Shown here: piece by piece, positions 10,652 to 46,468 of the stretch | Layout of the letters: each line of letters starts with the position of its first letter | How positions within the stretch are numbered: position 1 is the stretch's first letter | Origin: Synechococcus sp. WH 8109 | Lineage (GTDB): Bacteria; Cyanobacteriota; Cyanobacteriia; PCC-6307; Cyanobiaceae | Direction of reading: 5' to 3' | Length of the DNA stretch: 64,000 bases | Assembly: GCF_000161795.2 (NCBI RefSeq) | Contig: NZ_CP006882.1 | Coordinates: 992,001 to 1,056,000, forward strand | The notes under the pieces: model-generated | Database searches by the model: none | What the model was told of the DNA's origin: nothing | The model's input: only the letters and a program-made list of their open reading frames with translations | Made by a program: the position numbers and the translations under genes

Positions 10652-10684
10652 CGGCAGACTGAGTCAGTCGTAACGCCTGAAGAG

Positions 10685-11356
10685 ATGCCTCGTTCCGCCC
10701 GACGCCTATTGGCCAGCCTCCTTAGTTTCGGGGTCTGTTTTCTTCTATGGGCCCCTGCCAGTCTGGCGATCTCACCTGCTGCACTGGGTGGAAGCCTGCC
10801 GGATGCGTTGGTTATCGACGATGCCGATGTGTTCAGCCGCGCCAGCCGTGGTGAATTGGAAGCGAAATTGCGCAGCTTTGAAGATCAACGGGTCGATGCC
10901 CGTTTAATCACGCTGCGGCGTTTGGATTACGGCATCACCTTGAACAGCTTCGGTGAGGAACTCCTTGAAACATGGAGCTCACCCAGCGGCAATCCCTTGC
11001 TACTGATGTTGATCGAAGCCTCCAACAAGCGTTCCGCTGTGGTGGCTAATCAGGAGCTTGAGGCACAGCTTCCTCCCAGCCTGCTGAAGAGCACCGCCCG
11101 TACAACGATGACTGTGCCCTTGCGGGAGGGCGATCGTTATCGCCAGGCATCCGTTGATGGTCTCACCCGACTTTCAACCGTTCTCTCGGGTGGCGAGGAT
11201 CCCGGCCCTCCGAAGGAGATCGAACGGGTCACCCTGCCCACCAACATTCCCACTAAGGCCGAAACCGCTGAAAGCGATGCCACTAAGTGGGTGATCATCC
11301 TGTTGGTTCTTGGAACCATCATTCCGATGGCCACCTGGTGGGTTTTCTCGCGTTGA
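10685..11356 (+). CDS. psb32: TPM-domain thylakoid protein, Psb32-like
   Basis: 223 residues: N-terminal signal peptide (hydrophobic SLLSFGVCFLLWAPASLA), a TPM domain (DALVIDDADVFSRASRGELEAKL, then VDARLITLRRLDYG) and one C-terminal membrane segment (WVIILLVLGTIIPMATWWVF). This architecture matches Psb32 and plant TLP18.3, lumenal proteins that help photosystem II repair. The stop codon TGA overlaps an ATG (TGATG at 11354-11358) that begins a chain of mini-ORFs running into pcxA (see the repeat at 11356-11402). Confidence 0.82.
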   Translation: MPRSARRLLASLLSFGVCFLLWAPASLAISPAALGGSLPDALVIDDADVFSRASRGELEAKLRSFEDQRVDARLITLRRLDYGITLNSFGEELLETWSSPSGNPLLLMLIEASNKRSAVVANQELEAQLPPSLLKSTARTTMTVPLREGDRYRQASVDGLTRLSTVLSGGEDPGPPKEIERVTLPTNIPTKAETAESDATKWVIILLVLGTIIPMATWWVFSR

Positions 11357-11402
11357 TGGTCCGACTGCGATGAGCCGACTGCGATGAGCCGACTGCGATG
11401 AG
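11356..11402 (+). repeat. three tandem 14-bp units forming a chain of mini-ORFs before pcxA
   Basis: The unit CCGACTGCGATGAG occurs three times exactly at 11361-11374, 11375-11388 and 11389-11402. With the TGATG at the end of psb32 it makes three five-codon reading frames: MVRLR (11356-11373), MSRLR (11370-11387) and MSRLR (11384-11401). Each stops with a TGA that overlaps the next ATG, and the last overlaps the pcxA start at 11398. Since 14 is not a multiple of three, each repeat shifts the frame. This could couple translation of psb32 to pcxA, or simply be slippage that happens to leave the coupling intact. Confidence 0.85.
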
Positions 11403-12546
11403 CCGCCGTAAGTGGATCAACCTGTTCAGCAACAGCCAAGCGATCGAGCTCTCCAGTGATCTTGAGCGTGGTTATGAGGCGGCTCTGCTCATCCAAAGCC
11501 TGGAGTTGGAGTACTACGGCGACCGGCAGATCCGGCCGGAGCTCAAGCTCTCCGTTCCGCGCTCTGTTCAGTCCACGATTCTTCGCCGCTTTAAAACCGC
11601 GCTGGCCATCTGCCGCAATTCAAAAGCGACTCTCTCGAAACAACGGGGCCAACTGGATTCCCAGGAGTTGCGTCAACTTCAACTGATTGAATCTGTAGTG
11701 AGCCGCTATGGATCGCATCGATCAAGCACTTCGCCGTCGATTAGCCGCTCACCGGATGCCCTCCCCCGTTCGCTTCTGGGTGTCTTCGACAGCATTCGCC
11801 TCCAGTTAGATCCCTCGACGGAAGACAGCGTCGTGGCGGGGTATCGACGCCGGCGGGACAGCACGCTGATTTCACTGAGGGTTCTGCTTCTTCTCGTTTT
11901 GGTTCCCTTGCTTGTTCAGCAGATTGCTGGCACCTATCTGATCTCGCCTGCGGTAAATAAGTTTTCACCCGAACTGCCTTTCCTGAGCTACCCGAAGCCT
12001 CAGCTGGAAGAGAAGGCGGCTGAAAAACTTCGGCTCTACAAGCAAGAACTTGAATTCGATGCCTTCCTCAAGGGCGTGCAGCCCCTTGAGGAGGGCGCTC
12101 TGCGCGACAAGCTCACCGAAAAAGCGGCTGAACTCAAGCACGATGCCGATGAGGAAAGTCTCAAGGCGATCAAGAATGTTTTTTCGGATTTGGCAGGTCT
12201 GATCGCCTTCGCCGTGGTGTGTTTTATGAGCCGCGATGAACTGCGTGTTCTGCGTGGGTTTATTGATGAGGCTGTTTACGGGTTGAGTGATTCGGCCAAG
12301 GCCTTCGCCATCATCCTGTTTACCGACATCTTCGTGGGTTACCACAGCCCAGAAGGTTGGCAGGTCTTGCTGGAAGGGATTGCCGGGCATTTCGGCCTTC
12401 CCTCCAGCCAAAGTTTCGTCAACCTCTTCATCGCGACGTTCCCAGTGGTGTTGGCGACGATTTTCAAGTATTGGATTTTCAGATATCTCAACCGTGTGTC
12501 TCCGTCTTCCGTTGCGACGCTGAAGGGAATGAATGGCAGTGGTTGA
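11398..12546 (+). CDS. pcxA: proton extrusion protein PcxA (CemA/CotA family)
   Basis: 382-residue inner-membrane protein of the PcxA/CemA family, which supports light-dependent proton extrusion and inorganic carbon uptake. The soluble N-terminal ~160 residues are followed by a membrane segment (LISLRVLLLLVLVPLLVQQIA) and, after a charged linker, by three further hydrophobic stretches (LAGLIAFAVVCFM, AFAIILFTDIFVGYHSPEGW, FIATFPVVLATIFKYWIF). The FVGYHSPEGWQ motif is typical of CemA-type proteins. Translation starts at the third ATG of the 14-bp repeat. The 3' end overlaps cobU by 14 bp. Confidence 0.93.
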   Translation: MSRRKWINLFSNSQAIELSSDLERGYEAALLIQSLELEYYGDRQIRPELKLSVPRSVQSTILRRFKTALAICRNSKATLSKQRGQLDSQELRQLQLIESVVSRYGSHRSSTSPSISRSPDALPRSLLGVFDSIRLQLDPSTEDSVVAGYRRRRDSTLISLRVLLLLVLVPLLVQQIAGTYLISPAVNKFSPELPFLSYPKPQLEEKAAEKLRLYKQELEFDAFLKGVQPLEEGALRDKLTEKAAELKHDADEESLKAIKNVFSDLAGLIAFAVVCFMSRDELRVLRGFIDEAVYGLSDSAKAFAIILFTDIFVGYHSPEGWQVLLEGIAGHFGLPSSQSFVNLFIATFPVVLATIFKYWIFRYLNRVSPSSVATLKGMNGSG

Positions 12547-13117
12547 CCCCTCCTCCACAGTGGAGCCCCCCGTTGCCGGCCAGACCAGCCGGCTGATCCT
12601 GGTGAGTGGGCCAAGCCGCAGTGGCAAGAGCCGTTGGGCTGAGCACCTGTTAAGACACCACCCTGTTGTGACCTACATCGCCACGGCGGCCGCCCGACCG
12701 GATGACCGTGAGTGGCAAAAGCGCCTGGAGGCCCACCGGCAGCGTCGGCCCGACCATTGGAGCGTTTCCGAATGTGGAGCAGAGCTGGTGAGCGTGATCA
12801 ACGGCCTTGCTCCCGGGCAATCTGTTCTGATTGATGCACTCGGTGGTTTTGTTGCCCAGCACCTGGAACTCACTGCATCTGAGTGGGATCACCTCTGTGA
12901 ACAGCTGATCGCCTCGATCAGGGCATCGCACTGCACGTTTGTTCTGGTGATCGAAGAAACAGGCTGGGGCGTTGTTCCCCCTACACGCATTGGAGGCTTG
13001 TTCCGTGATCGTCTCGGAACCCTCGCGCAAGCACTTGACCCCGTTGCTGACGCTGCCTGGCTCGTTCTCCAGGGTCGCGCTCTGGATCTCCATTCCCTTG
13101 GCCAGGTGGTGCCATGA
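12533..13117 (+). CDS. cobU: adenosylcobinamide kinase / cobinamide-phosphate guanylyltransferase
   Basis: 194-residue bifunctional enzyme of the cobalamin nucleotide-loop pathway: it phosphorylates adenosylcobinamide and then transfers GMP. The P-loop is at LVSGPSRSGKSRWAE near residue 25. Family motifs TYIATAAARPDDREWQKRLEAH and VLVIEETGWGVVPPTRIGGLFRD are clear. The start overlaps the end of pcxA, and the stop overlaps the start of trmL (ATGA), so the three genes are probably co-transcribed. Confidence 0.95.
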   Translation: MAVVDPSSTVEPPVAGQTSRLILVSGPSRSGKSRWAEHLLRHHPVVTYIATAAARPDDREWQKRLEAHRQRRPDHWSVSECGAELVSVINGLAPGQSVLIDALGGFVAQHLELTASEWDHLCEQLIASIRASHCTFVLVIEETGWGVVPPTRIGGLFRDRLGTLAQALDPVADAAWLVLQGRALDLHSLGQVVP

Positions 13118-13605
13118 CTGAAATTGCCCCCCTGCGTATTGCTCTGTTCGAGCCTCAGATCCCTCCGAACACCGGCAACATCGCCCGCACCTCGGCGGCT
13201 TTCAGGGTGCCGTTGACCCTGATTGAACCCCTCGGCTTCAAGGTGGATGATCGAAGCGTTCGTCGTGCAGGTCTTGATTACTGGCCCCACGTTCAGCTTT
13301 CAATCACTTCCAACTTTGCCGAGTTCCAAGCTGAGCTTCGTCCTGAGCAGAGGTTGATCGGCTGCAGTCGTCGTGGTGGGTCATCGCTCTCCTCGTTCAC
13401 GTTTCAACGGGGAGATGTTCTGCTGTTTGGTCGTGAAGACACCGGTCTACCGGAACCGGTGCGCGAAGCCTGCGACAGCATCCTCACGATCCCCATGCCT
13501 GGAGCTGCTGATGACGCAGGCCAAGGAGGTGTTCGCAGCCTCAACCTTTCCGTAGCCTGCGCCCTGGTGACTTACGTGGCTGGACAAAAGTTGCGGTTGT
13601 GGTGA
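13114..13605 (+). CDS. trmL: tRNA (cytidine/uridine-34-2'-O)-methyltransferase, TrmL/YibK type
   Basis: 163-residue SpoU-class (SPOUT) methyltransferase expected to methylate the wobble ribose of certain tRNA-Leu species. Motif 1 is EPQIPPNTGNIARTSAAF, motif 2 LLFGREDTGLPEPVRE and motif 3 IPMPGAADDAGQGGVRSLN; these form the trefoil-knot SAM site. Length matches the short YibK form. The start overlaps the cobU stop by four bases (ATGA). Confidence 0.93.
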   Translation: MTEIAPLRIALFEPQIPPNTGNIARTSAAFRVPLTLIEPLGFKVDDRSVRRAGLDYWPHVQLSITSNFAEFQAELRPEQRLIGCSRRGGSSLSSFTFQRGDVLLFGREDTGLPEPVREACDSILTIPMPGAADDAGQGGVRSLNLSVACALVTYVAGQKLRLW

Positions 13606-13638
13606 TCCGACCACTGCTCCAAACCCCCTTGCGCGCGG

Positions 13639-14727
13639 ATGTTCGGCTCGTTACCTTCAACGCGTCTCAGTGGTTTCATGCGCGCAACGCTTGCTCTCGC
13701 AGCTGCTGTAACCCCTGTTTTGTCTTTGGGTCTGTGGAGTGGCCTTCCCGGGATCGCCGATAACGCCACTTTTGATCTTGCAGAGCTGCCCCCTCTGCCA
13801 GCTCTATCTACGAACAATTCCGTTGCTGTTGTCAGCAAAGTCGAAACCAGCAATCAAGTCTGGTTCAAAGTTGTTCGTGCCACGTCCTTGCGGCGGTTCG
13901 CTGAGCTATTAAACCTCGATCGTGAGGTGCTGGCCTCGTTAAACAACGTTCCAAGCTCCCACGTTTTTGATAATGAAAGTTGGCTTTCCTTGCCGGACTC
14001 TGCACGGGTTGTTGCCGTGACGTTGTCGTCACTCAACGAGTCCAGTGAACGTCAGACGCTTCCGTTAGTTGCCCCACCTCCGGTAAGCGCCACGGCCAAA
14101 ATCAAGTCAGGCGACTCTCTAGCATCGTTCCTTAAACGCCATGGCGTTACGCAAAAGCAGCTGTTGAGTTGGAATCCAGGCCTTCAGCTAAGTGCTTTAA
14201 CGATCGGCCAGGAACTGCAGATCGCTCAAGCCTCTTCAGGTCAGTCAATCCTGTCTGTTCGCCCCCTCATCAGTGGAGGCGCTGCATGGCCTGATCGCCC
14301 TCTGTTGTCTTCAGCCGACCAGCCCGACAGCCTGAAGCCGCCGATTGTTGGTTACCAGTGGCCCACCAAGGGGGTTTTCACGTCCGGTTATGGGTGGCGC
14401 TGGGGACGCATGCACAAAGGCATTGATATCGCCAACAACACTGGAACGCCCGTTTTTGCTGCACGTGATGGAATCGTTTCTTTTTCCGGCTGGAGAGGCG
14501 CTTACGGCTATCTGGTTGAAATCGCCCACAGTGATGGCGAATTAACGCGTTATGCCCACAACAGCCGTCTTTTGGTCAAAAAAGGACAGATTGTTCCCCG
14601 TGGCTCTCGCATCTCACTGATGGGAAGCACCGGAAGAAGCACCGGCCCTCACCTTCACTTTGAAATCCGTCGGGCCGGTGGCGCTGCCCTCAATCCCTTG
14701 GTCAAACTTCCGGCACGTAAGGCCTAA
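13639..14727 (+). CDS. M23 peptidase with LysM domain
   Basis: 362-residue secreted or periplasmic peptidase of the LytM/M23 family. An N-terminal signal-like hydrophobic stretch (ATLALAAAVTPVLSLGLW) is followed by a LysM-type segment (KSGDSLASFLKRHGVTQKQLLSWNPGL) and a C-terminal M23 domain. The zinc-site motifs are visible: HKGIDIANNTGTPVFAA (HxxxD) and HLHFEIR (HxH). These enzymes cleave peptidoglycan cross-links or regulate amidases. An alternative start at 13678 (MRATLALAAAV) would give a more compact signal peptide. A tRNA-Met gene lies downstream on the other strand. Confidence 0.9.
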   Translation: MFGSLPSTRLSGFMRATLALAAAVTPVLSLGLWSGLPGIADNATFDLAELPPLPALSTNNSVAVVSKVETSNQVWFKVVRATSLRRFAELLNLDREVLASLNNVPSSHVFDNESWLSLPDSARVVAVTLSSLNESSERQTLPLVAPPPVSATAKIKSGDSLASFLKRHGVTQKQLLSWNPGLQLSALTIGQELQIAQASSGQSILSVRPLISGGAAWPDRPLLSSADQPDSLKPPIVGYQWPTKGVFTSGYGWRWGRMHKGIDIANNTGTPVFAARDGIVSFSGWRGAYGYLVEIAHSDGELTRYAHNSRLLVKKGQIVPRGSRISLMGSTGRSTGPHLHFEIRRAGGAALNPLVKLPARKA

Positions 14728-14789
14728 ATCAGGCTTGCTCAACTCAACAAAAGTTCGAACAAGCTGCTCACCAGCATGAAGCAATGAAT

Positions 14790-36707: not shown

Positions 36708-37457
36708 ATGCAGATCCGGGCCGAGCTGTGTCACGTCGACACCCTGAGATGCATCGTGCGGGTCGAGGCTTGGCTCGACGGTTCTCTGCAGGGCAGCGCC
36801 CTCGGTGAAGCCGCCACTGCTGAAGAGGCTGAGGAGAGGGCGTTGCACCGCCTGTACTCCAGGCTGGGGTCCATAGACGAACCACAACAGCTCCTGAATC
36901 CAGCTCGCCCTGAAGCCCAGGTGGATGAGCCGAATCTGAAGCAGGTGCCCGTCGAGCGGCCAAGAAAAATTGATCAAACCCCGACCTCGAATGCTCCACT
37001 ACCCCCTGCCATCCATCAGGTCCCAGTCACGCCTGCTGAAAACGCCCCCTCTGAAACTCCAACGGATCCTGACGACTGGAGTGATGAGCTGACCGCCATC
37101 GATATGGAAATCAGACGCATTGGTTGGTCTCGTGAGCAGGAGCAGGAGTACTTGACTCGAGCCTTCGGTCTCGGCAGCCGCCACAAGCTCACGCGCTATG
37201 CCGATCTGGTGGCCTATCTCCGTCAGTTGAAGTTGATCCAAGCCAACGACGACGCTTCTACGGCACCAGCACCCATCCGTCGTGGTGACCTGCTTCAACA
37301 AGGAGATGAAATGTTGAAGCAGCTGGGCTGGAGCTCCGATCAAGCCAGGACCTTTCTCCAACAACAATTGGGGGCGACCAGTCGTCAACAACTCGGTGAT
37401 GAACAGCTTCTGCAGTTCAACATGCTGCTGGAGGAGCAGACCCTAAAAGTCTCATGA
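36708..37457 (+). CDS. conserved hypothetical protein; its 3' end is the left repeat of the island
   Basis: 249 residues. The first ~50 residues (LCHVDTLRCIVRVEAWLDGS, then EAATAEEAEERALHRLYSRLG) look like a small alpha/beta domain resembling a double-stranded-RNA-binding or Rad52-like fold. A proline-rich linker follows, and then two similar three-helix segments (IDMEIRRIGWSREQEQEYLTRAFG near residue 135; DEMLKQLGWSSDQARTFLQQQLG near residue 200) that look like an internal duplication. Not recognised. The last ~11 codons fall in the 49-bp sequence repeated at 42939-42987. A phage capsid fragment begins immediately after the stop. Confidence 0.7.
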   Translation: MQIRAELCHVDTLRCIVRVEAWLDGSLQGSALGEAATAEEAEERALHRLYSRLGSIDEPQQLLNPARPEAQVDEPNLKQVPVERPRKIDQTPTSNAPLPPAIHQVPVTPAENAPSETPTDPDDWSDELTAIDMEIRRIGWSREQEQEYLTRAFGLGSRHKLTRYADLVAYLRQLKLIQANDDASTAPAPIRRGDLLQQGDEMLKQLGWSSDQARTFLQQQLGATSRQQLGDEQLLQFNMLLEEQTLKVS

Positions 37458-37472
37458 GTCGGGCGTAAATCC
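37424..37472 (+). repeat. attL-like direct repeat (49 bp)
   Basis: Starts GCTGCTGGAGGAGCAGAC in the last codons of the gene at 36708 and runs through its stop codon to AAATCC. The partner copy is at 42939-42987; 45 of 49 bases are identical by eye. A duplicated 3' gene end on both sides of a cargo region is the usual result of site-specific integration. No integrase gene remains nearby. Confidence 0.7.
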
Positions 37473-37652
37473 CTTGTTATTTACGGGAACTTTGCTGACC
37501 TGTTGATCGGTCTGTACGGGACGTTGGAGATCCTGGTCGACCCCTACACCGACTTTGCTAAGGACACGACGGGCATCAGGGCCTTGCAGTCGATCGACAT
37601 TGCTTTGCGTCACGCCGAATCATTCGCAGCGATGCAGGACGCAATCGCATAA
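37458..37652 (+). pseudogene. remnant of a phage major capsid protein (C-terminus)
   Basis: Open frame without a start codon, 64 codons, directly after the stop of the upstream gene. It reads IYGNFADLLIGLYGTLEILV - DPYTDFAKDTTG - IDIALRHAESFAAMQD. The order GNF-DL-IG-(W/Y)G-LE-L-VDPYT followed by a D-ALRHAESFA-ending is the C-terminal P-domain end of HK97-fold capsid proteins. The 5' part of the gene is missing. It is followed by a strong terminator at 37685. This fragment is the best evidence that a phage or phage satellite once occupied this site. Confidence 0.75.
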
Positions 37653-37684
37653 CCGCGACAGCGCCCTGCTTGTGGTGCGTACTG

Positions 37685-37714
37685 GCCCGGGGCTTGGACA
37701 CCCCGGGCTTTTTT
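37685..37714 (+). terminator. Rho-independent terminator after the capsid remnant
   Basis: Perfect 8-bp stem GCCCGGGG / CCCCGGGC with an 8-base loop, followed by TTTTTT. It fits the end of the former capsid operon and insulates the AT-rich gene that follows. Confidence 0.9.
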
Positions 37715-37745
37715 GTTTATATGTTCGAAACTGGTTGATTAAGCC

Positions 37746-38387
37746 ATGTCACTTGTTGATCGGGTTAAAAGTCCTGGAGAGATTTACGTGTTGCTTGTTA
37801 CTTTTATTTTTACCGAGCAATTTGACAGAAATTTAGACTTGGAAGCTGTCGAAGAAGGTGCAATTAGAAATTTTCTTGAAATATCTCATTCATTTTTGGA
37901 TGCACTCACTAATCATATGCAGCCAATAGGGGCTGCATTTTTTGTATATACATTTATCCTGATAGCGCTGAGATTGTGGGGGAATAAATCGCGGAGATTG
38001 ATTGATGTGCTCGCAATTTTCCTTACAGCTTGCTGGATCGTTGAGCTTGTCATCATTAATCTACTTCTTGTTGCTCCTATCAAAAGCCCCATTCTTTTGA
38101 TCGTTGAGCTTTTGCTCTTTATCCCAATTATCTTGATTTGTTTTTCGTGGTGGTATTGGCGAATAAACCATGGGCGATCTGAAAGAAATTTGTCACCTGC
38201 AATTGTAGTAACGGATGGACCAGGAGCTCTTGAATATTTTTTCTTCGCGGCAGAGGTTTGCTTTGACTACTCTCAGGATTCATGTAAAACTGTTATTTCA
38301 AAATTAGTACGACTTTTAAATGGATTTGTAGTACTAGACGTTTTTGGATTGACTCTTTCAAGAGCAGTGGATTTAGCTATAGGTTGA
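37746..38387 (+). CDS. AT-rich integral membrane protein, channel-like layout
   Basis: 213 residues with about five hydrophobic segments (AAFFVYTFILIALRLW; LIDVLAIFLTACWIVELVII; SPILLIVELLLFIPIILICF; ALEYFFFAAEVCF; GFVVLDVFGLTLSRAVDL). The last two segments around a short loop resemble the pore-helix and final helix of two-helix (Ion_trans_2) potassium channels, but the GYGD selectivity filter is missing, so the link is tentative. Base composition is much richer in AT than the core genes, indicating foreign origin. Confidence 0.6.
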   Translation: MSLVDRVKSPGEIYVLLVTFIFTEQFDRNLDLEAVEEGAIRNFLEISHSFLDALTNHMQPIGAAFFVYTFILIALRLWGNKSRRLIDVLAIFLTACWIVELVIINLLLVAPIKSPILLIVELLLFIPIILICFSWWYWRINHGRSERNLSPAIVVTDGPGALEYFFFAAEVCFDYSQDSCKTVISKLVRLLNGFVVLDVFGLTLSRAVDLAIG

Positions 38388-38486
38388 TTTCAGGGTCCTT
38401 GCTTGATCATCGGCCTCGGGTCATCGAAGGCGCGTTGTTTATCTAGCCTGTGGTGGTCAAAACAGTAGACAGATAGGGACAGCTAG

Positions 38487-38696
38487 ATGGATTTAATGAC
38501 GATTAGCGAGGCTGCAAGGCGCCTCGGATACAAGTCCAGATATCAGCTCTACAGGCTGATTAACGACGGCTACCTGCATGAGCATGTCCATGTGCAGCAG
38601 CACACGGGGCAGCGTTTGGTTGACATAGAGGGGCTGAGGGAGAAGCTGCAGTGCATCTGCCAGTGGCGACCCAACAGCGTGTTCCTCAGGCGTTAG
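38487..38696 (+). CDS. small helix-turn-helix DNA-binding protein (excisionase-like)
   Basis: 69 residues starting MDLMTISEAARRLGYKSRYQ. TISEAARRLGYKSRYQLYRLINDG has the spacing of a winged-helix/MerR-type DNA-binding helix pair as found in excisionase-like proteins, followed by a short beta-hairpin-like part (HVHVQQHTGQRLVDIEGLREK). A second small frame (GTG 38663 to 38755, ending LLNVIELAQDS) overlaps the end in another frame, so the C-terminus may be frameshifted. Its role could be control of the island; this is inferred from location only. Confidence 0.6.
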   Translation: MDLMTISEAARRLGYKSRYQLYRLINDGYLHEHVHVQQHTGQRLVDIEGLREKLQCICQWRPNSVFLRR

Positions 38697-38764
38697 AGAT
38701 AGAGCTGCAGTGGGTGACGCTGCTCAACGTGATTGAGCTGGCTCAGGACAGCTAGAGCGTTGGA

Positions 38765-39499
38765 TCAGTCCTCACAAATACCTTCTTTGTAAGAGCTGCA
38801 CGAACGAGTTCTTAATTCTTCCCATCGCCAAATCCAAGGACTAAGCATGTCAGGATCATCAAGCATCCAGCATCCCTGCCCAATATTTTCAGCGTTTATG
38901 TAGCTGGAATAATCAGTATATGAGTTGATGAAATTAGGTTTTACGATTTCTTCTTTTGCTCTTTGGCATAGTTTGAAGAATTCACGTCTGTGCTTTGCGT
39001 CTATGGCTGCTTCCCTTGCGGCAGCAGCGTTCGCGCGAGCTTCTGCTTCTCGCCGCGCTTTATTTCTTGCCTCGGCTTCCTTCCGTTTCTGAGCTTCATT
39101 TTCTTGCCGACGTTTTGCCACCTCAGCCAAGCGATCTGACTCCTTCTTTTGGAGCCTTGGACTGGTAGGTCTTAAAAACTTCTCAATTCCATCTATGTCA
39201 TCCAGCCCAAAAGATGCGGTGATAATTTCACCATCATTGTCGCGTTAGCAGAGCTGCTGATTGGGCTGTGTGTAGCCACCCATTGAGTTTCGGCTGTTCC
39301 ATCTCCAGCCGTAAACGACAGGGTTGTCTGGCTCTTGCTGATAGATGTCCGGCTCGCTGCGCTCTCTATACGACTCAATGTCCAGAAGAGTCGGAACGAG
39401 AATGTCCCGACAGGCTTTGGCGGTTTGGGCCTTTTGATCAAAGGCATTGCATGACCTGACAAATATCGCCAGCGGCAACAGCAGCAGTAGCCGTTTCAA
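38765..39499 (-). pseudogene. secreted coiled-coil protein broken by an in-frame stop
   Basis: Two stretches in the same minus-strand frame are separated only by a TAA at 39247-39245. The first part starts with a signal peptide (MKRLLLLLPLAIFVRSCNA) and ends YTQPNQQLC; after the stop the frame continues RDNDGEIITASFGLDDIDGI, then a long Arg/Glu/Ala-rich coiled coil (AEARANAAAAREAAIDAK) and a Cys-containing tail. Without the stop it would be one protein of about 244 residues. Either a nonsense mutation inactivated it, or the downstream part is made from an internal start (TTG at 39130). Function unknown. Confidence 0.65.
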
Positions 39500-39544
39500 C
39501 TCAAAAGGCTCGGTATGCCACCCAGTCTGGCTACTACTTCAGGT

Positions 39545-39817
39545 ATGCCCAACAAGGACCGCTCTTTCCACGAAGCGCCAGAGAAGGCTGTTGGTGAGGG
39601 GTGGCTGTATTCCGAGCTGGAGCAGAAGCTCTGTCACTTCAAGCCCGACACAGCGACCGTGCATGCCCAGTGGGTTGCCATCAGGACATACAGCTACGTT
39701 CCGCCCCGCCCGCCTGAGCCGATGAATCGCAGGCGGATGCTGCGGCACAACGCTGTTGAGGCTTGGCAGACGATGCAGAAGACGGGCTGGAGACGCTGCC
39801 CTCCGCCTGTTCGCTGA
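39545..39817 (+). CDS. DUF1651 family protein
   Basis: About 90 residues starting MPNKDRSFHEAPEKAVGEGW. The family pattern is present: GWL....L..F.PD......W.......PR...P....R...R..A...W......GWR.C.P..R, ending WQTMQKTGWRRCPPPVR. DUF1651 is almost confined to marine Synechococcus and Prochlorococcus and often sits in genomic islands. Function unknown. Confidence 0.75.
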   Translation: MPNKDRSFHEAPEKAVGEGWLYSELEQKLCHFKPDTATVHAQWVAIRTYSYVPPRPPEPMNRRRMLRHNAVEAWQTMQKTGWRRCPPPVR

Positions 39818-40004
39818 AAGCAATCGTTTCTCGCTAGGACAGACGGACCCAGCAGTTGCCGCTGACATGGGTCCGCGTCCCGCCCGGAGCCCTCCAGAAC
39901 GGAACGCAATTCAAATAGCCCAGTGACACCAGTCGATTCAGCGTGAATTGATACCAACTTGGGCATTTTGTTACCGGCAGAAAAAAAGGGAGCAGAGTGG
40001 CGTC

Positions 40005-40211
40005 ATGAGCAACACCAATGATCCGAACGCATGGCATCTGGGTCTGCGTCGGCCAATGGGGGGTGACCCTCTAAATGAACCCGTCATGGCTGCGATATAC
40101 GGCTACGAGTTCAACGGCGACTTATGGCGACTTAATGACCAGGGCTATCCGGAACCTTTGTTAGAACCCATGCTCGGCCGGTGGGAGCAACTGCACTATC
40201 CCGAGGGGTAA
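40005..40211 (+). CDS. small hypothetical protein
   Basis: 68 residues starting MSNTNDPNAWHLGLRRPM and ending RWEQLHYPEG. Acidic, with several Trp and Tyr and no membrane segment. Coding is supported by amino-acid composition only; not recognised. Upstream in-frame starts exist as far as 39948, but the ATG at 40005 gives the most natural protein. Confidence 0.45.
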   Translation: MSNTNDPNAWHLGLRRPMGGDPLNEPVMAAIYGYEFNGDLWRLNDQGYPEPLLEPMLGRWEQLHYPEG

Positions 40212-40379
40212 ACCTCAAAATGGTTCTCACCCCCGCCTGTGCGCTGAAGGGAGAGGGAGACGCGGGCGAGGGAACCCGCTGGCTTTCATCTCCCGAGGCG
40301 TTTGCAGTGGTGCTAGCGCCAAAACAATCCTCACAGCAAACGCGAAGAGACCTGGCTAGTAATTAATGCCTAATTAGCA

Positions 40380-40485
40380 GCATTTGATACTCGGGGAGAG
40401 CCCCCAGTTAGAGAGAATTAATTTGAAGGCAGTGGTGCCTTCAATGCGTCGTTTGGGGTGGGCTGAGGGGCCCGCCTCTTTTTAT
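40380..40485 (+). ncRNA. possible small RNA with two hairpins and terminator
   Basis: In a gene-poor stretch (40212-40893), a small hairpin GGGGAGAGCCCC (near 40396), a hairpin GAAGGCA-GTGG-TGCCTTC (40424-40441) and a terminator (GGTGGGC / GCCCGCC followed by TCTTTTT, 40457-40485) follow one another without any reading frame that looks real. This is compatible with a short transcript ending at the terminator. Promoter and expression are not shown. Confidence 0.3.
40457..40485 (+). terminator. Rho-independent terminator in the island
   Basis: Stem GGTGGGC / GCCCGCC (one G-T pair) with loop TGAGGG, followed by TCTTTTT. No intact gene ends directly upstream, so it may end a small RNA or a decayed operon. 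Confidence 0.6.
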
Positions 40486-40813
40486 GCGCTGACTACTGCT
40501 GTTGCTGCGCCTGCTGCTGACTAAGCGTTTTAGGCCGTTTGGACTGTTGCGCCCGAGCTTCGGTCAGCGTTGTCGATGCTGAGCGAAAGCGCGCAGCTAA
40601 AGAGAGCGACTCGGACAACAGCTGACAACTGCCGTTGCTGCATGCGCACTTTTATGCGCACACTGAATAACATTTAGGCCCAGACCCACTGCAGCAAGGG
40701 GGTTATAAGCAAAAGACATGCTCCTGGAGGAGCAAGCTATGAAAACGACGAGCTGACTTCTTTAGCTGAAAAGCCAGCACTGAAGCAGCTTTTCAGGGTT
40801 TAGGAATAGCTTG
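40486..40813. other. gene-free stretch in the island
   Basis: No convincing reading frame on either strand. It contains GC-skewed CTGCTG/TGCTGA-rich sequence and CTCCTGGAGGAGCAAGC near 40731, which resembles the core of the att-like repeat (GCTGGAGGAGCAGAC) but is shorter. It probably represents decayed mobile sequence. Confidence 0.5.
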
Positions 40814-40898
40814 TTTGCGTGCAGATATGGCCTTTCGCAGCTGCATAAGAGCCTTTTGCGTGCGTTTTTGCGTGCAGGGCTAAACCGTTTTGCGTGCA
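40814..40898 (+). repeat. cluster of TTTTGCGTGCA motifs
   Basis: Four near-identical copies of TTTTGCGTGCA lie within 85 bp (starting at 40814, 40854, 40865 and 40888). The same motif begins the larger repeats at 42881 and 46160, and variants with GCGCACAC occur near 40650 and 43075. Outside 40.6-46.2 kb it was not noticed. It could be a binding site array for a recombinase or regulator of the island. Confidence 0.6.
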
Positions 40899-41049
40899 CG
40901 AGCCCCATAGCGGCAATGCAGCCATCTCAGAGGCGTTCAAGATCGTGAACAGCAACGTGCTCGAACCAGAGCAACGCGAGCAGCTGCAGGCGATCCGAGC
41001 GCATCTGGACAGCCTTGAGGAAGGCGGATCACAGGTGATCGACGTCTAG
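40894..41049 (+). CDS. short reading frame, possible gene fragment
   Basis: 51 codons from a GTG inside the last TTTTGCGTGCA motif. The product has an amphipathic helical part (AISEAFKIVNSNVLEPEQRE, QLQAIRAHLDSLEEGG) that looks like real protein sequence. The frame stays open upstream to 40849 through the repeat. It may be the 3' end of a larger lost gene. Not recognised. Confidence 0.4.
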   Translation: MHEPHSGNAAISEAFKIVNSNVLEPEQREQLQAIRAHLDSLEEGGSQVIDV

Positions 41050-41156
41050 TGGTAGTAACCAGTCTTTCGGCAGCTATCAGCAGACTCTTTTGACTGCTGA
41101 CGGGCTTTGAACACGTCCATCTCTTGGCTGGCACCTATCTGGATCAAGGGCTCTAG

Positions 41157-41228
41157 ATGGAGCAAACCATCGCTGTACTGCACAAGGCAGTTGACCTAGT
41201 GCCGCAGCTTGGAGAGGATGTTGACTAA
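41157..41228 (+). CDS. very small open frame overlapping the next gene
   Basis: 23 codons, MEQTIAVLHKAVDLVPQLG, ending in TAATG that overlaps the ATG of the gene at 41228. The coupling suggests it may be translated as a leader, or it is a gene remnant. Confidence 0.35.
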   Translation: MEQTIAVLHKAVDLVPQLGEDVD

Positions 41229-41590
41229 TGACAATAAACATCGGAAAAACAATCCTCTATGCGATGGGAGCCCTCGTTGTCTTCGCTTTCATAAGGATGA
41301 GTGGGGATGATTGGGACACTTGGACACCCAGAGAAGAGGCCAGGAAAGCCTGCGAAGTAGAGATCAAGAAGGGACGCCTCTATAGGGTTTCGTACCCAAA
41401 GCCGGGGGACCCAAAGAAGAATTTCTACGGGCGCCATTGTGAACTGAGTTTGTACTGGAATCGCTACGAACTGCAGGAGATAAACGGTGATTACAAGACC
41501 TATGAAGAGTTGAGAAAGGCTCGCTGGCAGGATTACCGCCCCATCCGTAGGTACTACTTCGACGGGCGCGGCGTCGTGGAAATGCGATGA
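41228..41590 (+). CDS. hypothetical protein with N-terminal membrane anchor
   Basis: 120 residues. One hydrophobic N-terminal segment (ILYAMGALVVFAFIRM) acts as signal or anchor, followed by a polar, aromatic-rich domain with two cysteines (KACEVEIKKG; GRHCELSLYW), a possible disulfide. Not recognised. Its stop overlaps the following start (ATGA), so the two genes are coupled. Confidence 0.6.
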   Translation: MTINIGKTILYAMGALVVFAFIRMSGDDWDTWTPREEARKACEVEIKKGRLYRVSYPKPGDPKKNFYGRHCELSLYWNRYELQEINGDYKTYEELRKARWQDYRPIRRYYFDGRGVVEMR

Positions 41591-41775
41591 ACATGATCAA
41601 CGACTACGAGCCAGCACCACCTCAGAACTTCATCGGGCCAATGGTCTACCCGATCAAGTACCTGCCATGCCGTGTGTGTGGTGGGTCAGTCCGTGTCGCT
41701 GACAAGTACAGACACGCGAAGACAGCAGTCCATGGCGAGTGCTGGAGAGAAGAGCTGAACAGCTCCTCGCATTAG
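41587..41775 (+). CDS. small protein with zinc-finger-like CxxC
   Basis: 62 residues. CRVCGGSV, then HAKTAVHGEC forms a C-x2-C ... H-x5-H-x2-C pattern that could bind one zinc ion. Such tiny zinc proteins are common in phage and island DNA. ATGA overlap with the upstream gene. Confidence 0.55.
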   Translation: MNMINDYEPAPPQNFIGPMVYPIKYLPCRVCGGSVRVADKYRHAKTAVHGECWREELNSSSH

Positions 41776-41860
41776 GTAGGGGACGTAAGAGGGGAACCAT
41801 CTCAGGGATGTAAGGCAGGGAGTCCTGCATCTCTCATCGGCGATCTGATCTATTGCGTCC

Positions 41861-42166
41861 CTACAAGAAGGTGCAAAGACCTTCGTAATCGTGAACTTTG
41901 TAAGTGGTGCTCTTTCCAGAGTCCTCCATTTCGACCTCACCTAGATCCTCTACCAATTCGAACCTCGCAGGAGGTCTGACTAAATCGAAGGATTCATTCC
42001 CTTCAACGTCTGCCCAGTAGGTCACATTGCCTTCGTGGATGCTTTTAATACACTTCACCAATGCTGGCTCATCCACCTCCATACGGCTGTATTCGGAGTG
42101 GATGTCTTCTGCCATCACTGGTAAGCATCCGAATGCCATCACTGCCAGAAGGACGTGGGTCTTCAT
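41861..42166 (-). CDS. small secreted hypothetical protein
   Basis: 101 residues from the ATG at 42166. MKTHVLLAVMAFGCLPVMAED is a standard signal peptide with an AxA-like site (VMA|ED). The mature part is acidic (YSRMEVDEPALVKCIKSIHEG...) and has two cysteines, one near each end, which could pair. Not recognised. The frame is open further upstream, but the signal peptide fixes the start. Confidence 0.6.
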   Translation of the reverse strand: MKTHVLLAVMAFGCLPVMAEDIHSEYSRMEVDEPALVKCIKSIHEGNVTYWADVEGNESFDLVRPPARFELVEDLGEVEMEDSGKSTTYKVHDYEGLCTFL

Positions 42167-42262
42167 CAGTGGTTCTGATTGCTCAGATCTAAATAGCACC
42201 GGTTTGCAAGATGCCACTCTCTGAATACCTTGGGGCAATGGTCTCCGTCTTCGTTGACTCCA

Positions 42263-42451
42263 ATGCCAGAGAACTGGATTCCTGGGCTTCAGCCTCCTAA
42301 GCCTTCCGCTGCCAACCTCAAGAAAGGACCAACTGTCGAGGGTGTTTCTGAAGAGGGAAAGAATGAGAAGGTCATCTCTCTGGAAGAACTAGAGCAAGCC
42401 AAGGAATCAGGCTTCGAGGTTCCCAATGAAGGACGTGCCCCCGGCTTTTAG
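42263..42451 (+). CDS. small hypothetical protein
   Basis: 62 residues starting MPENWIPGLQPPKPSAANL, highly charged (VEGVSEEGKNEKVISLEELE) and probably disordered. A TTG start at 42230 would add 11 residues. Not recognised; coding support is weak. Confidence 0.4.
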   Translation: MPENWIPGLQPPKPSAANLKKGPTVEGVSEEGKNEKVISLEELEQAKESGFEVPNEGRAPGF

Positions 42452-42489
42452 GGCTCTTCTGATAGCTGCAAGGACTTTCTGGCTGACTT

Positions 42490-42744
42490 CTAGGGCTGCA
42501 ATTCCGGGAGGATGTGAGTCACCAGGTCAGCGTTGACCCAGTTGATGACGCCGGTATCGACATCAGCCACTTGGAACAACGTTGGAATCTTCGGGTTTCT
42601 GGCACCGCCATCCACCCAGATCACATCAGCCATCCGCCAGGCACCTTCCGTGTCAGTAACGATCATGGTCATGCCTGCTTTGACATGCAGGAAAACGGGG
42701 TCTGACTTGGGCGCTGCAACGGCGCTCGCATGATCAACCGACAT
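42490..42744 (-). CDS. DUF3104 family protein
   Basis: 84 residues. The core FLHVKAGMTMIVTD, then WRMADVIWVDGGARNPKIPT and LFQVADVDTGVINWVNADLV matches the DUF3104 family of marine Synechococcus, usually found in flexible genome regions. Probably a small beta-barrel; function unknown. It is the last gene before the right repeat. Confidence 0.78.
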   Translation of the reverse strand: MSVDHASAVAAPKSDPVFLHVKAGMTMIVTDTEGAWRMADVIWVDGGARNPKIPTLFQVADVDTGVINWVNADLVTHILPELQP

Positions 42745-42840
42745 ACCCCTCTTGCTAGTACAGCAGTATTAGTACAGGAGCAGGCGGCAGGTCCAGGAAA
42801 TGAATCGGAAGACTGATGAACGGCATCGCACTCAGGACTG

Positions 42841-42957
42841 CCTAGGGCAGTCACAAGCCTTCCTAATCAAATAAGCGTGCTTTTTTGCGTGCAGATTGTC
42901 GAGGTTCGTTGAAAACCAAGTCAGTCACTCAATCTGTAGCTGCTGGAGGAGCAGACA
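42841..42957 (+). repeat. long direct repeat, copy A (partner at 46120-46236)
   Basis: Begins CCTAGGGCAGTCACA, passes through TTTTTTGCGTGCAGATTGTC and ends in GCTGCTGGAGGAGCAGAC. Copy B at 46120 has the same order of blocks with scattered differences. The end of copy A is also the start of the attR-like repeat, so two repeat systems meet here. Confidence 0.75.
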
Positions 42958-42987
42958 CTGAAAGTCTCATGAGTCGGGTTTAAATCC
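42939..42987 (+). repeat. attR-like direct repeat (49 bp)
   Basis: Matches 37424-37472 at 45 of 49 positions, including the duplicated last codons and stop (AAAGTCTCATGA) of the gene at 36708. A TAG directly upstream in that frame shows that only the 3' end was copied, as expected of an att site. Confidence 0.7.
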
Positions 42988-43270: not shown

Positions 43271-43347
43271 GATGTTTATTGCTTCACAAAGACCAAGGGA
43301 TTGGTGAGGTCATAAAACAAGAGTGCAACAACTCAACATCCTTGGTT

Positions 43348-44325
43348 GTGATTCGCTCTGCACGCACTGCTCTCCTGTTGGGAGCCGCCCTCGCTTTTGG
43401 AACTGCACTGCCATCTTCTGCGGCTCCCAGGCTGAACGGAGCTGGCGCCTCGTTCCCGGCCAAGATCTACCAGCGTTGGTTCGCCGATCTGGCTAAGGCT
43501 GGCGGCCCTCAGGTGAACTACCAGGCTGTGGGTTCCGGTTCTGGCCGTAAAGCCTTCATCGATCAAACAGTGAACTTCGGCGCATCGGATGATCCGATGA
43601 AGAAGAAGGATATGGCCAAGGTCGACCGTGGTGTTATTCAGATCCCGATGGTGGGTGGCACCATTGCCTTCGGCTTCAACAAGCCTGGCTGTGAGCTGAA
43701 GCTGACCCAGGAGCAGGCTGTTCAGGTCGCCATGGGCATGATCCAGAACTGGAAAGAGCTCGGCTGCAAGCCCGGCACACTCATCTGGGTGCACCGCTCC
43801 GATGGATCTGGCACCACCAAGGCCTTCACCAACTCCATGCAGGCTTTTTCCAAGACCTGGAGCCTCGGCACCGGTAAATCTGTCAAGTGGCCCGCTGGCG
43901 TTGGAGCCAAAGGCAACTCGGGCGTTGCTGCAGTAATCAAGAACCGGGTCGGCGCAATCGGGTACGTGAACCAGTCGTACATCAAGGGCAACGTCAAAGC
44001 AGCCGCTGTTCAGAACCTTTCTGGTGAATTCCTCAAGCCCTCTGTTGCTTCAGGAGCTACTGCCCTTAATGGCATCACTCTGGATAAGGATCTGGCTGGT
44101 ACAAACCCGAACCCTTCCGCTAAGGGTGCTTACCCCATCGCCACCCTCACCTGGGTCCTGGCATACAAAACTGGTAATGGTGCTAACGCCAAGGTGGTGC
44201 AAGAGGCCTTCAACTACATGCTGAGCGACGCCGCTCAGGGCAAAGCTCCTTCCCTGGGCTTCGTTCCCCTCAAGGGCAACATCCTGGCCAAGTCCAAGGC
44301 TGCTGTAAACAAGATCGGCAAGTGA
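43348..44325 (+). CDS. pstS: phosphate ABC transporter substrate-binding protein (PstS/SphX type)
   Basis: About 325 residues. The GTG at 43348 gives VIRSARTALLLGAALAFGTA with a normal signal peptide cleaved near SSAA; the frame is open back to a TTG at 43279, which would add 23 odd residues. The mature part starts LNGAGASFPAKIYQRWF. Phosphate-loop motifs are QAVGSGSGRKAFIDQ, FGASDDPM and HRSDGSGTTKAFT. It captures phosphate in the periplasm for a Pst transporter, whose membrane parts are not in this window. Regulated by the PHO box upstream; ptrA follows. Confidence 0.9.
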   Translation: MIRSARTALLLGAALAFGTALPSSAAPRLNGAGASFPAKIYQRWFADLAKAGGPQVNYQAVGSGSGRKAFIDQTVNFGASDDPMKKKDMAKVDRGVIQIPMVGGTIAFGFNKPGCELKLTQEQAVQVAMGMIQNWKELGCKPGTLIWVHRSDGSGTTKAFTNSMQAFSKTWSLGTGKSVKWPAGVGAKGNSGVAAVIKNRVGAIGYVNQSYIKGNVKAAAVQNLSGEFLKPSVASGATALNGITLDKDLAGTNPNPSAKGAYPIATLTWVLAYKTGNGANAKVVQEAFNYMLSDAAQGKAPSLGFVPLKGNILAKSKAAVNKIGK

Positions 44326-44434: not shown

Positions 44435-44507
44435 AATCTCTCCCGACTCTTTGTTTGGGATCGATGTTGTGTTTAATACAGTTTTTTTCGAATTCACGGA
44501 ATTCCAA

Positions 44508-45170
44508 ATGCTTGTCACTCCATCAGCTGATCTGAGTTCAACAGCTCTGAGTTTCCAGGCGTTTATTGAAAGCAGCTACGACAATCGCAATGTTGTGCAT
44601 GTCACCTCGGGAAGTTTTGTTCCTCTACTGAAGAACAGCGTTTGGTTTGTCATTCGCGGCATGGTCAAGCTGGGGGCACTTTCGGTGCATGGCGATGAAC
44701 TGGTGCTTGGCCTTGTGGGTCCCAATGAACCCTTCGGTGCCGCATTCACCAATGTGGAGGCCTACGAAGCTGTAGCGATCACAGATTGCGATCTGCTCTG
44801 CTGCAATCTGGCGGAGCTGGAGCATTCTCCTCAGTTGGCGCTTGGCTTCGCCAAGGCCATGGCCGCGCGTTACCGCCAGGCGGAGTCGATGCTTGCCCTG
44901 CTGGGGCTGCGGCGAGTTGAAGAACGGGTCCGGGGGTTTCTGGAGCTGCTCGCCAAGGACTTTGGCGAACCCTGTGAGGCCGGGTTGCGGGTCACCCTTC
45001 GCATGACCCATCAGGAGATCGCCAGTGCCCTCAGCACCACACGGGTGACCGTGACCCGAGTGTTGGGCCAGTTGCGGGATGAAGGCTGGCTTCAGATTGA
45101 TGCCTCTAGGCATCTAGTGCTGACCGACGCCGGCCGCCATTCAACCGTGATGGCCTGTTCTGAGTCCTGA
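44508..45170 (+). CDS. ptrA: CRP-family phosphate-stress regulator PtrA
   Basis: About 220 residues from the ATG at 44508 (MLVTPSADLSSTALSFQ). It has a cyclic-nucleotide-binding-like beta-roll domain in the first half (FVPLLKNSVWFVIRGMVKLG; LVLGLVGPNEPFG) and a C-terminal Crp/FNR helix-turn-helix (MTHQEIASALSTTRVTVTRV). In marine Synechococcus a CRP-like regulator next to pstS/sphX, PtrA, controls phosphatases and other genes in the second phase of phosphate stress. The gene name rests on this context and on the domain. Confidence 0.85.
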   Translation: MLVTPSADLSSTALSFQAFIESSYDNRNVVHVTSGSFVPLLKNSVWFVIRGMVKLGALSVHGDELVLGLVGPNEPFGAAFTNVEAYEAVAITDCDLLCCNLAELEHSPQLALGFAKAMAARYRQAESMLALLGLRRVEERVRGFLELLAKDFGEPCEAGLRVTLRMTHQEIASALSTTRVTVTRVLGQLRDEGWLQIDASRHLVLTDAGRHSTVMACSES

Positions 45171-45729: not shown

Positions 45730-46086
45730 GTGAGTAGAACTACTCAGAGTCAGCAACCCCTGACCGCTCAAACTCTTGAGCAGATCCTTGAAAACGCGTC
45801 ACATCAACTGTTAAGCGATCCAAGGTTTTGTAACGAGCTGAACTTTTTGTCTCGGTTGAGCCATACGGGACTCGATTTGTTGCCTATTTCTTGGAAAACA
45901 GGGATACACGCAATGAAAGCGACCAAGCTCACTACTGCTCCACAGGGCTTCGAGTACTACAGGGTTTGCGACGAAGAAGGTGTCTGCCGTGTAGTAAGAG
46001 GCATGTGGGCAGCCAAGCACCTCATAGAAGACATGCCTGAGCTAATCGCCACTAGGACAAAGCTCTACCCAGCGGAGTGGAGTTAA
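45730..46086 (+). CDS. hypothetical protein
   Basis: 118 residues from a GTG, or 57 residues from the ATG at 45913 (MKATKLTTAPQGFEYYRVCD), which has a better ribosome-binding site (CAGGGA). The C-terminal part (EYYRVCDEEGVCRVVRGMWAAKHLIED) looks like a real small domain with two cysteines. The N-terminal part (LTAQTLEQILENASHQLLSD) also looks coding. Not recognised. It is followed by repeat copy B. Confidence 0.5.
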   Translation: MSRTTQSQQPLTAQTLEQILENASHQLLSDPRFCNELNFLSRLSHTGLDLLPISWKTGIHAMKATKLTTAPQGFEYYRVCDEEGVCRVVRGMWAAKHLIEDMPELIATRTKLYPAEWS

Positions 46087-46119: not shown

Positions 46120-46236
46120 CCTAGGGCAGTCACATGCAGCCCTACCTAAATAAACGTCTTTTTTTGCGTGCAGATTGTCGAGGATTGCTGAAAAACCAGT
46201 CAGCCATTTGAATTGTCGCTGCTGGAGGAGTAGACG
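46120..46236 (+). repeat. long direct repeat, copy B (partner at 42841-42957)
   Basis: CCTAGGGCAGTCACA, then TTTTTTTGCGTGCAGATTGTCG, GGATTGCTGAAAAACCAGTC and GCTGCTGGAGGAGTAGACGCT, in the same order and spacing as copy A. After 46238 the similarity stops, so copy B lacks the second half of the att-like core. The two copies bracket pstS and ptrA. Confidence 0.75.
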
Positions 46237-46468
46237 CTCACCCAGGCCAAATATGTATTAACACTCAGGAACGGTCGGAGCTAATGGCCTACAACGGGTT
46301 TGCGGCAGGGACTGATACGGCGTCCATGCCGATTGCAGCAGGGTGAATCGTCTACACACTCTGCTCAGCCCGGTCGTTCCCTCCGCTTCTTTCCTGAAGG
46401 GGGGAATGGCCCTTATGGGGAAGCAACGAAATCAGAGCTCTGAAGTGAAAGGTTGCTGAGCTGCTACC
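46237..46468. other. gene-free stretch after repeat B
   Basis: No gene recognised. A GGGGGGAATGGCCC segment near 46398 could form local structure. Confidence 0.4.

Follow-up and report, generated by a model that had tools for sequence, protein, structure and literature searches.

What kind of insertion lies behind a protein gene whose last codons recur, nearly unchanged, a few kilobases downstream, with the tail of a phage capsid gene between the copies? The question is raised by a 64,000-nucleotide window (the whole stretch of DNA that was analysed; positions 992,001 to 1,056,000 of contig NZ_CP006882.1) of Synechococcus sp. WH 8109, and by the island that follows one of its genes, called here gene 36708 after its first position. 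The original prediction, made from the letters of the window, was of a single decayed element, a prophage or satellite without an integrase, bounded by two 49-bp copies of the gene end. The answer reached here is a different one: the island is probably an array of three small integrative elements, added successively at the last codons of the gene. The genome that holds the window, a single contig of 2,111,515 bp, is G000 in what follows; other G numbers are genomes compared with it.

Three tandem units at one gene end

The repeat itself is present as predicted. Positions 37424-37472 and 42939-42987 agree at 45 of 49 bases, 5515 bp apart, and the repeat spans the 10 final sense codons and the stop of gene 36708-37457, plus 15 bp past the stop. 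It does not bound a single element of 5.5 kb. A 19-bp core, TGCTGCTGGAGGAGCAGAC, searched with up to 3 mismatches, occurs at four sites in the window, beginning at 37423, 40719, 42938 and 46217 (3 mismatches at copy 40719, 2 at copy 46217), where shuffled sequences lead one to expect 0.03. The remaining window (108.6 kb of strand) holds no match at this threshold and 2 at 4 mismatches; 510 kb of backbone strand from relatives holds 1 and 14, the counts at 4 mismatches taking in the closer matches too. The four cores mark out three tandem units of 3.3, 2.2 and 3.3 kb, the last ending at 46217. That the two 49-bp copies match reflects two units sharing the same kind of left end; they are not the attL and attR of one element. 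The core contains CTGCT-GGAGG-AGCAG; its predicted fold is ordinary (z -0.67), and it is therefore treated only as an imperfect palindrome.

The extent of the insertion can be read from relatives in which the site is empty. In G033, G002 and G029 the gene end (window 37444) abuts window 46218, with an overlap of 21 nt; the insert is therefore ~8.8 kb long and takes in pstS and a CRP-family gene, well past the right limit of 42987 first assigned to it. The proposal of an att-like insertion at a protein gene, with empty sites in relatives, is thereby upheld. G028 also has a tail of the empty-site kind, on a contig that stops 733 bp further on. Gene 36708 was matched in 50 of the 59 relatives searched, among them 29 of 33 of the genus (G007 and G012 give partial matches only). 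Downstream of the gene, 28 relatives were scanned for extra cores, which were found in G009, G031, G013 and G019, and marginally in G008 (4 mismatches); the extra core of G009 also has 4 mismatches, but its arm is present. Some of the scanned contigs end shortly past the gene (229 bp in G018), so that missing extra cores there say little. Core totals are 4 in the window, 3 in G019, 2 each in G009, G031 and G013, and 1 each in G033, G002 and G029.

The last few residues of gene 36708 vary with the state of the island, and its reading frame is kept open in all the occupied-site genomes compared. Behind the right-most core stands the empty-site gene tail in the window, G009 and G019, where the gene itself carries a new tail. 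The order of unit contents differs between genomes: in G009 and G031 the sequence that begins at window 40716 stands directly behind the gene, and the next core of G031 is preceded by the right end of unit 2. Unit 2 is a separate insertion, because both its ends lie between gene and next core in G031. In G023 and G020 the gene seemed at first to be followed by islands with an integrase; these candidates were dropped, as no second core was found and the genes look backbone-like by eye; one G023 integrase lies ~12 kb downstream. The exact gene-end pattern was also sought in genome contigs and found in four stretches, including the Synechococcaceae metagenome-assembled contigs L087 and L088.

Arm motifs at the unit ends

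A core flanked by arm sites is the usual layout of the phage attachment site (attP) of a tyrosine integrase, and traces of such arms are found here. The ~120 bp ahead of most right-end cores resemble one another. Among 300 family genomes, this right arm was found at two places each in G000 and G019, and also in G031, G009 and G013; a sixth genome, G033, matched in the core alone; the search took the best two candidates per genome in the genomes listed, and may miss copies elsewhere. The motif TGCGTGCA stands exactly at -51 to -53 from five of the eight unit-closing cores (window 42938 and 46217; G009; G013; G019 4098), and in altered form at two (G031 2905, G019 2801). Where element DNA lies to the right of a core, the same motif is found at +97 to +101 in five of nine cases (window 40719, G009, G031 1437, G013, G019 1435), and three of those five left ends bear more copies at +150 to +172. 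The pattern TTTTTGCGTGCA has 3 copies in the whole of G000, every one in the island, as against 0 for the reversed control, and 11 copies across 34 genus genomes, 7 of them in this island, as against 1. Three att and arm patterns searched in viral contigs were not found there. Unit by unit, unit 2 has arm motifs at either end and unit 3 has them at its right end; the exact motif is missing from unit 1 and from the left end of unit 3.

At the level of sequence comparison, then, the array is marked by empty sites, four cores, a displaced tail, replacement tails that preserve the gene, and arm motifs at constant distance at many ends. A mechanism can be proposed: a tyrosine recombinase that bound the TGCGTGCA arms and cut within CTGCT-GGAGG-AGCAG would have inserted each element; every insertion would have remade the gene end from the element's own tail, pushing the older att copy one step to the right. 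Unit 1 would have been a capsid-carrying phage satellite, since shrunken to a capsid stub, a cargo gene and an AlpA-like gene; unit 2 carries small genes whose functions are not known; on unit 3 lie pstS and the gene of a PtrA-like regulator, a pair that probably came from another lineage and is deleted at its usual place.

Several observations sit badly with this account. There is no motif at -52 from the right end of unit 1 (window 40719), nor an exact motif at the left ends at window 37423 and 42938, G031 2905 and G019 2801; given these missing arms, unit 1 might have arrived otherwise, for example by recombination between islands. The original tail is not seen past the last core of G031, and the last tail of G013 is unlike the empty-site tail. 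The mismatch level of the second G009 core is the one reached 14 times in the backbone strand. Finally, no recombinase for this site was found in the 34 genus genomes.

The missing recombinase

The island was predicted to lack an integrase, and none was found in the units, either among the open reading frames (ORFs) scanned by profile or by genome searches. The mechanism above would have the recombinase lost or supplied in trans, because no present unit was found to encode one. The Phage_integrase profile has matches in all 34 genus genomes, none of them inside the islands among the matches listed. A second kind of integrase (415 aa; PHROG integrase match 3.1e-14, Pfam score below cut-off) is encoded by a small satellite of G201, described below; it was matched in 24 of the 34 genus genomes and in none of the islands (G000, G009, G031, G013, G019), and its sole match in G000 is a fragment at 1,293,494. 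In G029, contig 1 carries three genes or pieces of this type within 30 kb (1,562,667-1,592,641), possibly a tandem array of related elements.

One way to read the lack of integrases is that the units are integrase-free cassettes: non-autonomous, they would be moved in trans by one recombinase, with the gene end as a capture platform. The islands of G000, G009, G031, G013 and G019, which have no integrase among the matches listed, agree with this, as do the motifs retained at both unit 2 ends and the unit 3 right end, and the varied order of unit contents. Yet no candidate recombinase was found to serve such cassettes, and elements that were formerly autonomous would, once decayed, look just like them. 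We regard a cassette origin as possible, though unlikely, and prefer successive insertion of elements without that restriction.

Origin of the phosphate gene pair

Unit 3 carries pstS and, beside it, a CRP-family regulator gene (44451..45170) which we take to be ptrA from its family and its neighbour pstS; the gene names mfd, ctp and ispG, used below, are likewise presumptive. Close ptrA orthologues lie 121-141 kb from gene 36708 in G033, G002, G029, G009, G031 and G019. The order in this usual place is pstS1, pstS2, ptrA in five of the six relatives; no separate pstS1 match was seen in G019. In strain WH8102, PtrA is a CRP-family regulator of the severe phosphate stress response (excerpt of PMC11098088).

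The island copy is probably foreign in origin. Compared with the six resident copies, its segment has an identity of 85.3-87.8%, those of G033, G029 and G002 being 94.5-95.4% identical among themselves; G000 and G033 are 95.1% identical in mfd and 95.3% in one flank of the usual place. A tree of 1.7 kb rejects the grouping of island with G033 (approximately unbiased (AU) test, p=0.0012) and places the island beside G019, with support 91/93; this tree is without G025 (short upstream sequence) and G013, G017, G020, G022 and G023, the last five of which are in a ptrA-only tree. Divergence at fourfold sites between G000 and G033, the closest on mfd of six relatives compared (a set without G028), is 0.33 for pstS and 0.21 for ptrA, against 0.15 for mfd, 0.14 for ctp, 0.17 for ispG and 0.16 for gene 36708; from G009 it is 0.39 for pstS, 0.25 for ptrA and 0.31 for mfd. 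Tree and divergence together therefore fit a donor outside the nearest relatives. Three points weigh on the other side: the resident pair of G019 is itself just 85.3-88.9% identical to the others; the ptrA-only tree leaves descent with G033 unrejected (AU p=0.06); and the divergence of ptrA from G009 is lower than that of mfd.

A competing reading is that the island pair is the resident copy, relocated within the genome and fast-evolving since. At the usual place in G000 both flanks and pstS1 are present, and pstS2-ptrA is gone, leaving a clean junction; the genome has one close ptrA copy, the next match being 36% identical. These facts, and the ptrA-only result, favour a moved resident; the rejection of the grouping with G033 in the longer tree, and a fourfold-site divergence of pstS from G033 about twice that of the core genes, speak against it. 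We judge relocation improbable, without its being far-fetched, and continue to favour acquisition from another lineage.

A bolder proposal extends this. The gene end would be a working capture platform, at which a recombinase acting in trans, possibly satellite-related, takes up short integrase-free cassettes with attP-like ends, one at a time; these would swap modules of pstS plus regulator between lineages, the resident copy then being discarded. We put it forward as a speculation, and a rather doubtful one.

Shuffled modules and weaker alternatives

Pieces of units 1 and 2 (DUF1651, DUF3104 and the helix-turn-helix (HTH) gene) recur at many genus loci, a minimum from the best eight candidates per genome, and in at least four other stretches of G000; cargo is therefore shuffled between islands. 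Shared modules in varied order show that recombination between units also occurs, and it could be supposed that slippage or chance first duplicated the end of gene 36708 (its 3' end), the islands then being built by homologous recombination between the copies. That is very unlikely: site-specific integration is indicated by the replacement tails, by the clean empty sites and by motifs that keep a constant distance in five genomes. The weakest account, a single decayed 5.5-kb prophage or satellite with pstS-ptrA as plain flanking DNA, has the 45/49 identity and the capsid remnant between the copies to recommend it, but is scarcely credible when the empty-site junctions fall at 46217, not 42987, when there is an extra core at 40719 whose left-end sequence stands directly behind the gene in two relatives, and when pstS-ptrA is sited elsewhere in six.

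Table 1. Features of the island and its target gene (window coordinates)
Feature	Position	Strand	Basis
Target gene, 249 aa, function not known; last codons are the integration core	36708..37457	+	ORF list, genome comparison
Core copy 1, inside the gene; left boundary of unit 1	37423..37441	+	core search, tail comparison
Left end of unit 1, 49 bp (new gene tail TLKVS-stop + 15 bp)	37424..37472	+	repeat alignment
C-terminal stub of HK97-type protease/major capsid fusion (residues 156-218 of 218-residue query)	37461..37652	+	PHROG, Pfam, homologues
Hairpin and T-run behind capsid stub, terminator-like	37685..37714	+	z -2.75, folded with DNA parameters
Unit 1 cargo, 213-aa protein, function not known	37746..38387	+	ORF list, homologues
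AlpA/excisionase-like HTH protein, 69 aa	38487..38696	+	weak profile matches, place beside capsid genes
DUF1651 protein	39515..39817	+	Pfam
Core copy 2, unit 1/unit 2 boundary	40719..40737	+	comparison with relatives
Unit 2 left arm: three TGCGTGCA motifs at +97, +150 and +172 from core	40812..40898	+	motif scan
Unit 2 ORF, 120 aa, without profile match	41228..41590	+	ORF list, Pfam
DUF3104 protein, unit 2	42490..42744	-	Pfam
Unit 2 right arm (TTTTTTGCGTGCAGATTGTCGAGG, motif at -52)	42845..42937	+	arm search, motif scan
Core copy 3, unit 2/unit 3 boundary; adjoining 49-bp repeat 42939-42987	42938..42956	+	repeat, core comparison
pstS, periplasmic phosphate-binding protein, unit 3 cargo	43279..44325	+	PHROG 5385, 2.4e-137
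CRP-family regulator, PtrA-like, unit 3 cargo	44451..45170	+	CRP-type HTH and cNMP-binding domains
Unit 3 ORF, 118 aa, without profile match	45730..46086	+	ORF list, PHROG, Pfam
Unit 3 right arm (motif at -52), sharing 80% identity with the unit 2 right arm	46120..46216	+	arm search, motif scan
Core copy 4 and, displaced, the original 3' tail of the target gene; island ends here on the right	46217..46270	+	empty sites of relatives, tail comparison

Unit 1 and the capsid satellites

Unit 1 retains the C-terminal ~60 residues of a capsid protein of the HK97 type. Its frame is open from the stop of gene 36708, with clear homology from about 37476; the segment 37503-37652 has matches to the major head protein family PHROG 617 (3.2e-6, over positions 572-624 of the 626 in the profile) and to the Pfam family Phage_capsid (6.1e-6, 26.3 bits, cut-off 24.2). 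This capsid C-terminus is thus confirmed, and a terminator-like hairpin with a T-run follows it, where a strong terminator had been noted. Homologues of the 213-aa cargo protein occur in G019 (80% identical) and G008 (73%). The HTH protein has weak matches (PHROG 2655 excisionase, 0.006; HTH_17, 3.6e-5, under cut-off), and relatives of its gene adjoin capsid genes elsewhere. PADLOC, run on ten island ORFs, returned this HTH protein as mad1 (1.1e-4) and the 213-aa cargo as 2TM effector (0.08), and nothing else. Phage records searched with the interval 37424-42987 gave no match, and replication genes and an integrase were not found in unit 1 by ORF list and profile scans. Judged from its homologues, unit 1 is probably the remnant of a capsid-carrying satellite whose whole form occurs in related genomes. 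The idea of a decayed satellite therefore holds for unit 1, whose capsid remnant is of satellite origin, and is unsupported for the island as a whole.

Full-length relatives of the stub, of 564-566 aa, are found in G028, G027 and G013, that of G028 with protease and capsid domains; the neighbours of the capsid gene in G027 are helicase/primase-like genes, another ORF, an HTH-gene relative and an integrase-like ORF that is cut off. Capsid matches occur in 29 of 300 family genomes. Among the 40 matches listed, 13 cover residues 2-215 or more of the 218-residue query, with an identity of 54% or higher; another 10 are C-terminal stubs (leaving out broken-copy pieces in G015 and G260). An AlpA-like gene, named by eye from sequence, comes within 0.9 kb after five of the seven stubs inspected, that of the window included, the exceptions being L187 (G319) and L102 (G027 contig 8). 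An intact element in G145 is flanked by 56-bp copies of a tRNA-Pro end, set 9.3 kb apart; an IMG/VR contig of 8,725 bp has the same gene order, a capsid protein 65% identical, and a terminal 413-aa ORF that looks integrase-like by eye. The nearest named cyanophage capsids (S-LBS1, S-CBS1, S-CBS3) are 40-42% identical.

The G201 element mentioned above is ~4 kb long. It carries a sequence like the tRNA-Pro end of G145 (ARAGORN predicts no tRNA-Pro there), two TGCGTGTA motifs, a capsid stub, genes for an AlpA-like protein and for the 415-aa integrase, and, ahead of a truncated copy of the tRNA-Pro-end-like sequence, one more such motif. Among 20 satellite and island loci, TGCGTG[TC]A occurs three times in G201, once in each of seven loci and not at all in twelve. 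The recombinase of the window's site may be kin to the G201 integrase; this is a single case, taken as a hint.

Several related loci deserve mention in their own right. L210 (about 10240-14320, reverse orientation) holds a miniature satellite of ~4 kb that looks autonomous: it has an integrase of its own, together with arm motifs, a capsid stub and an AlpA-like gene. In L138 (G027 contig 8, about 4485-4700) and L102 (1319-1674) a C-terminal capsid stub adjoins, without a gap, the 3' end of a metallothionein-like gene, a further instance of a stub set against a protein gene's end. G000 has two further capsid-gene 3' ends, each followed by a relative of the HTH gene: L134 12370-14142 (G000 1,312,370-1,314,142), where capsid end and terminator are reduced to 85 bp, and L055 11206-13112. 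In L056 (5518-8664) a 1048-aa protein, subtilase-like by eye and with four near-identical repeats spaced at 369 bp, lies between two capsid gene pieces; in L193 (1955-2449) the space between capsid stub and AlpA-like gene is occupied by two small ORFs that look bacteriocin-like by eye and have leaders of the double-glycine type.

The genus set contains two C-terminal stubs and two N-terminal pieces broken near the same codons (VIYGNF). Helper-embedded phage-inducible chromosomal islands (HE-PICIs) integrate in capsid and other late genes (excerpt of PMC10111431), and a satellite using a fixed site in the capsid gene in this manner was considered. The candidate was dropped after the 300-genome search, because C-terminal stubs start at residues 59, 102, 132, 142, 156, 161, 179, 189 and 197, which leaves a fixed site unsupported.

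Relation to known systems

Additive flexible genomic islands offer one comparison. As excerpts of PMC10872708 describe it, such an island in Methylophilaceae is marked by recurring tRNA-Lys end repeats; here the target is a protein gene, the empty sites, arm motifs and displaced tail are resolved, and the cargo includes pstS-ptrA, with loss of the pair in its usual place. Tycheposons of Prochlorococcus (excerpts of PMC10872708 and PMC10187409) are likewise marine integrative elements with nutrient-acquisition cargo, represented here by pstS and the CRP-family gene. The likeness to tycheposons suggested by the original prediction breaks down on the tRNA target and the encoded recombinase: the island is not at a tRNA gene (the one tRNA of the window is at 14789), and no recombinase was found in the units, whose 2.2-3.3 kb also compare with 4-200 kb for tycheposons (excerpt of PMC10872708). 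A divergent tyrosine integrase family of picocyanobacteria, near tRNA-Phe and tRNA-Cys (excerpt of PMC10187409), is also associated with variable islands with nutrient genes in Prochlorococcus and Synechococcus; that element differs in its tRNA target and in having its own integrase, of a family not searched for here.

Satellites of the PICI kind, among them the helper-embedded ones (excerpt of PMC10111431), are approached by the relatives of unit 1, which carry integrase, HTH, primase/helicase, capsid-protease and AlpA-like genes, whereas unit 1 itself is reduced to capsid stub, cargo gene and AlpA-like gene, and lies at another site. An attP aimed at a gene usually brings a replacement end (same excerpt), and this is likewise seen here. 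Integron gene-cassette arrays resemble the island in their short integrase-less units placed serially at one site; the units here differ in having attP-like ends and arm motifs, attC-like sites and intI not having been specifically sought. No description of this island was found in the literature searched, and further papers may contain one. What sets it apart is the protein-gene target in a picocyanobacterium, units in which no integrase was found, and a resident phosphate module that appears to have been replaced.

Among marine picocyanobacteria, the capacity to acquire phosphate is a main niche trait. The array is an integrative island of a picocyanobacterium at a protein gene rather than a tRNA gene, and the combination of capsid stub, cargo gene and AlpA-like gene in its first unit recurs elsewhere, as the inspected stubs indicate, as a miniature satellite remnant. 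A phosphate-binding gene and a CRP-family regulator, carried on an att-flanked unit and probably foreign, would provide a concrete and testable route by which such a trait may be exchanged.

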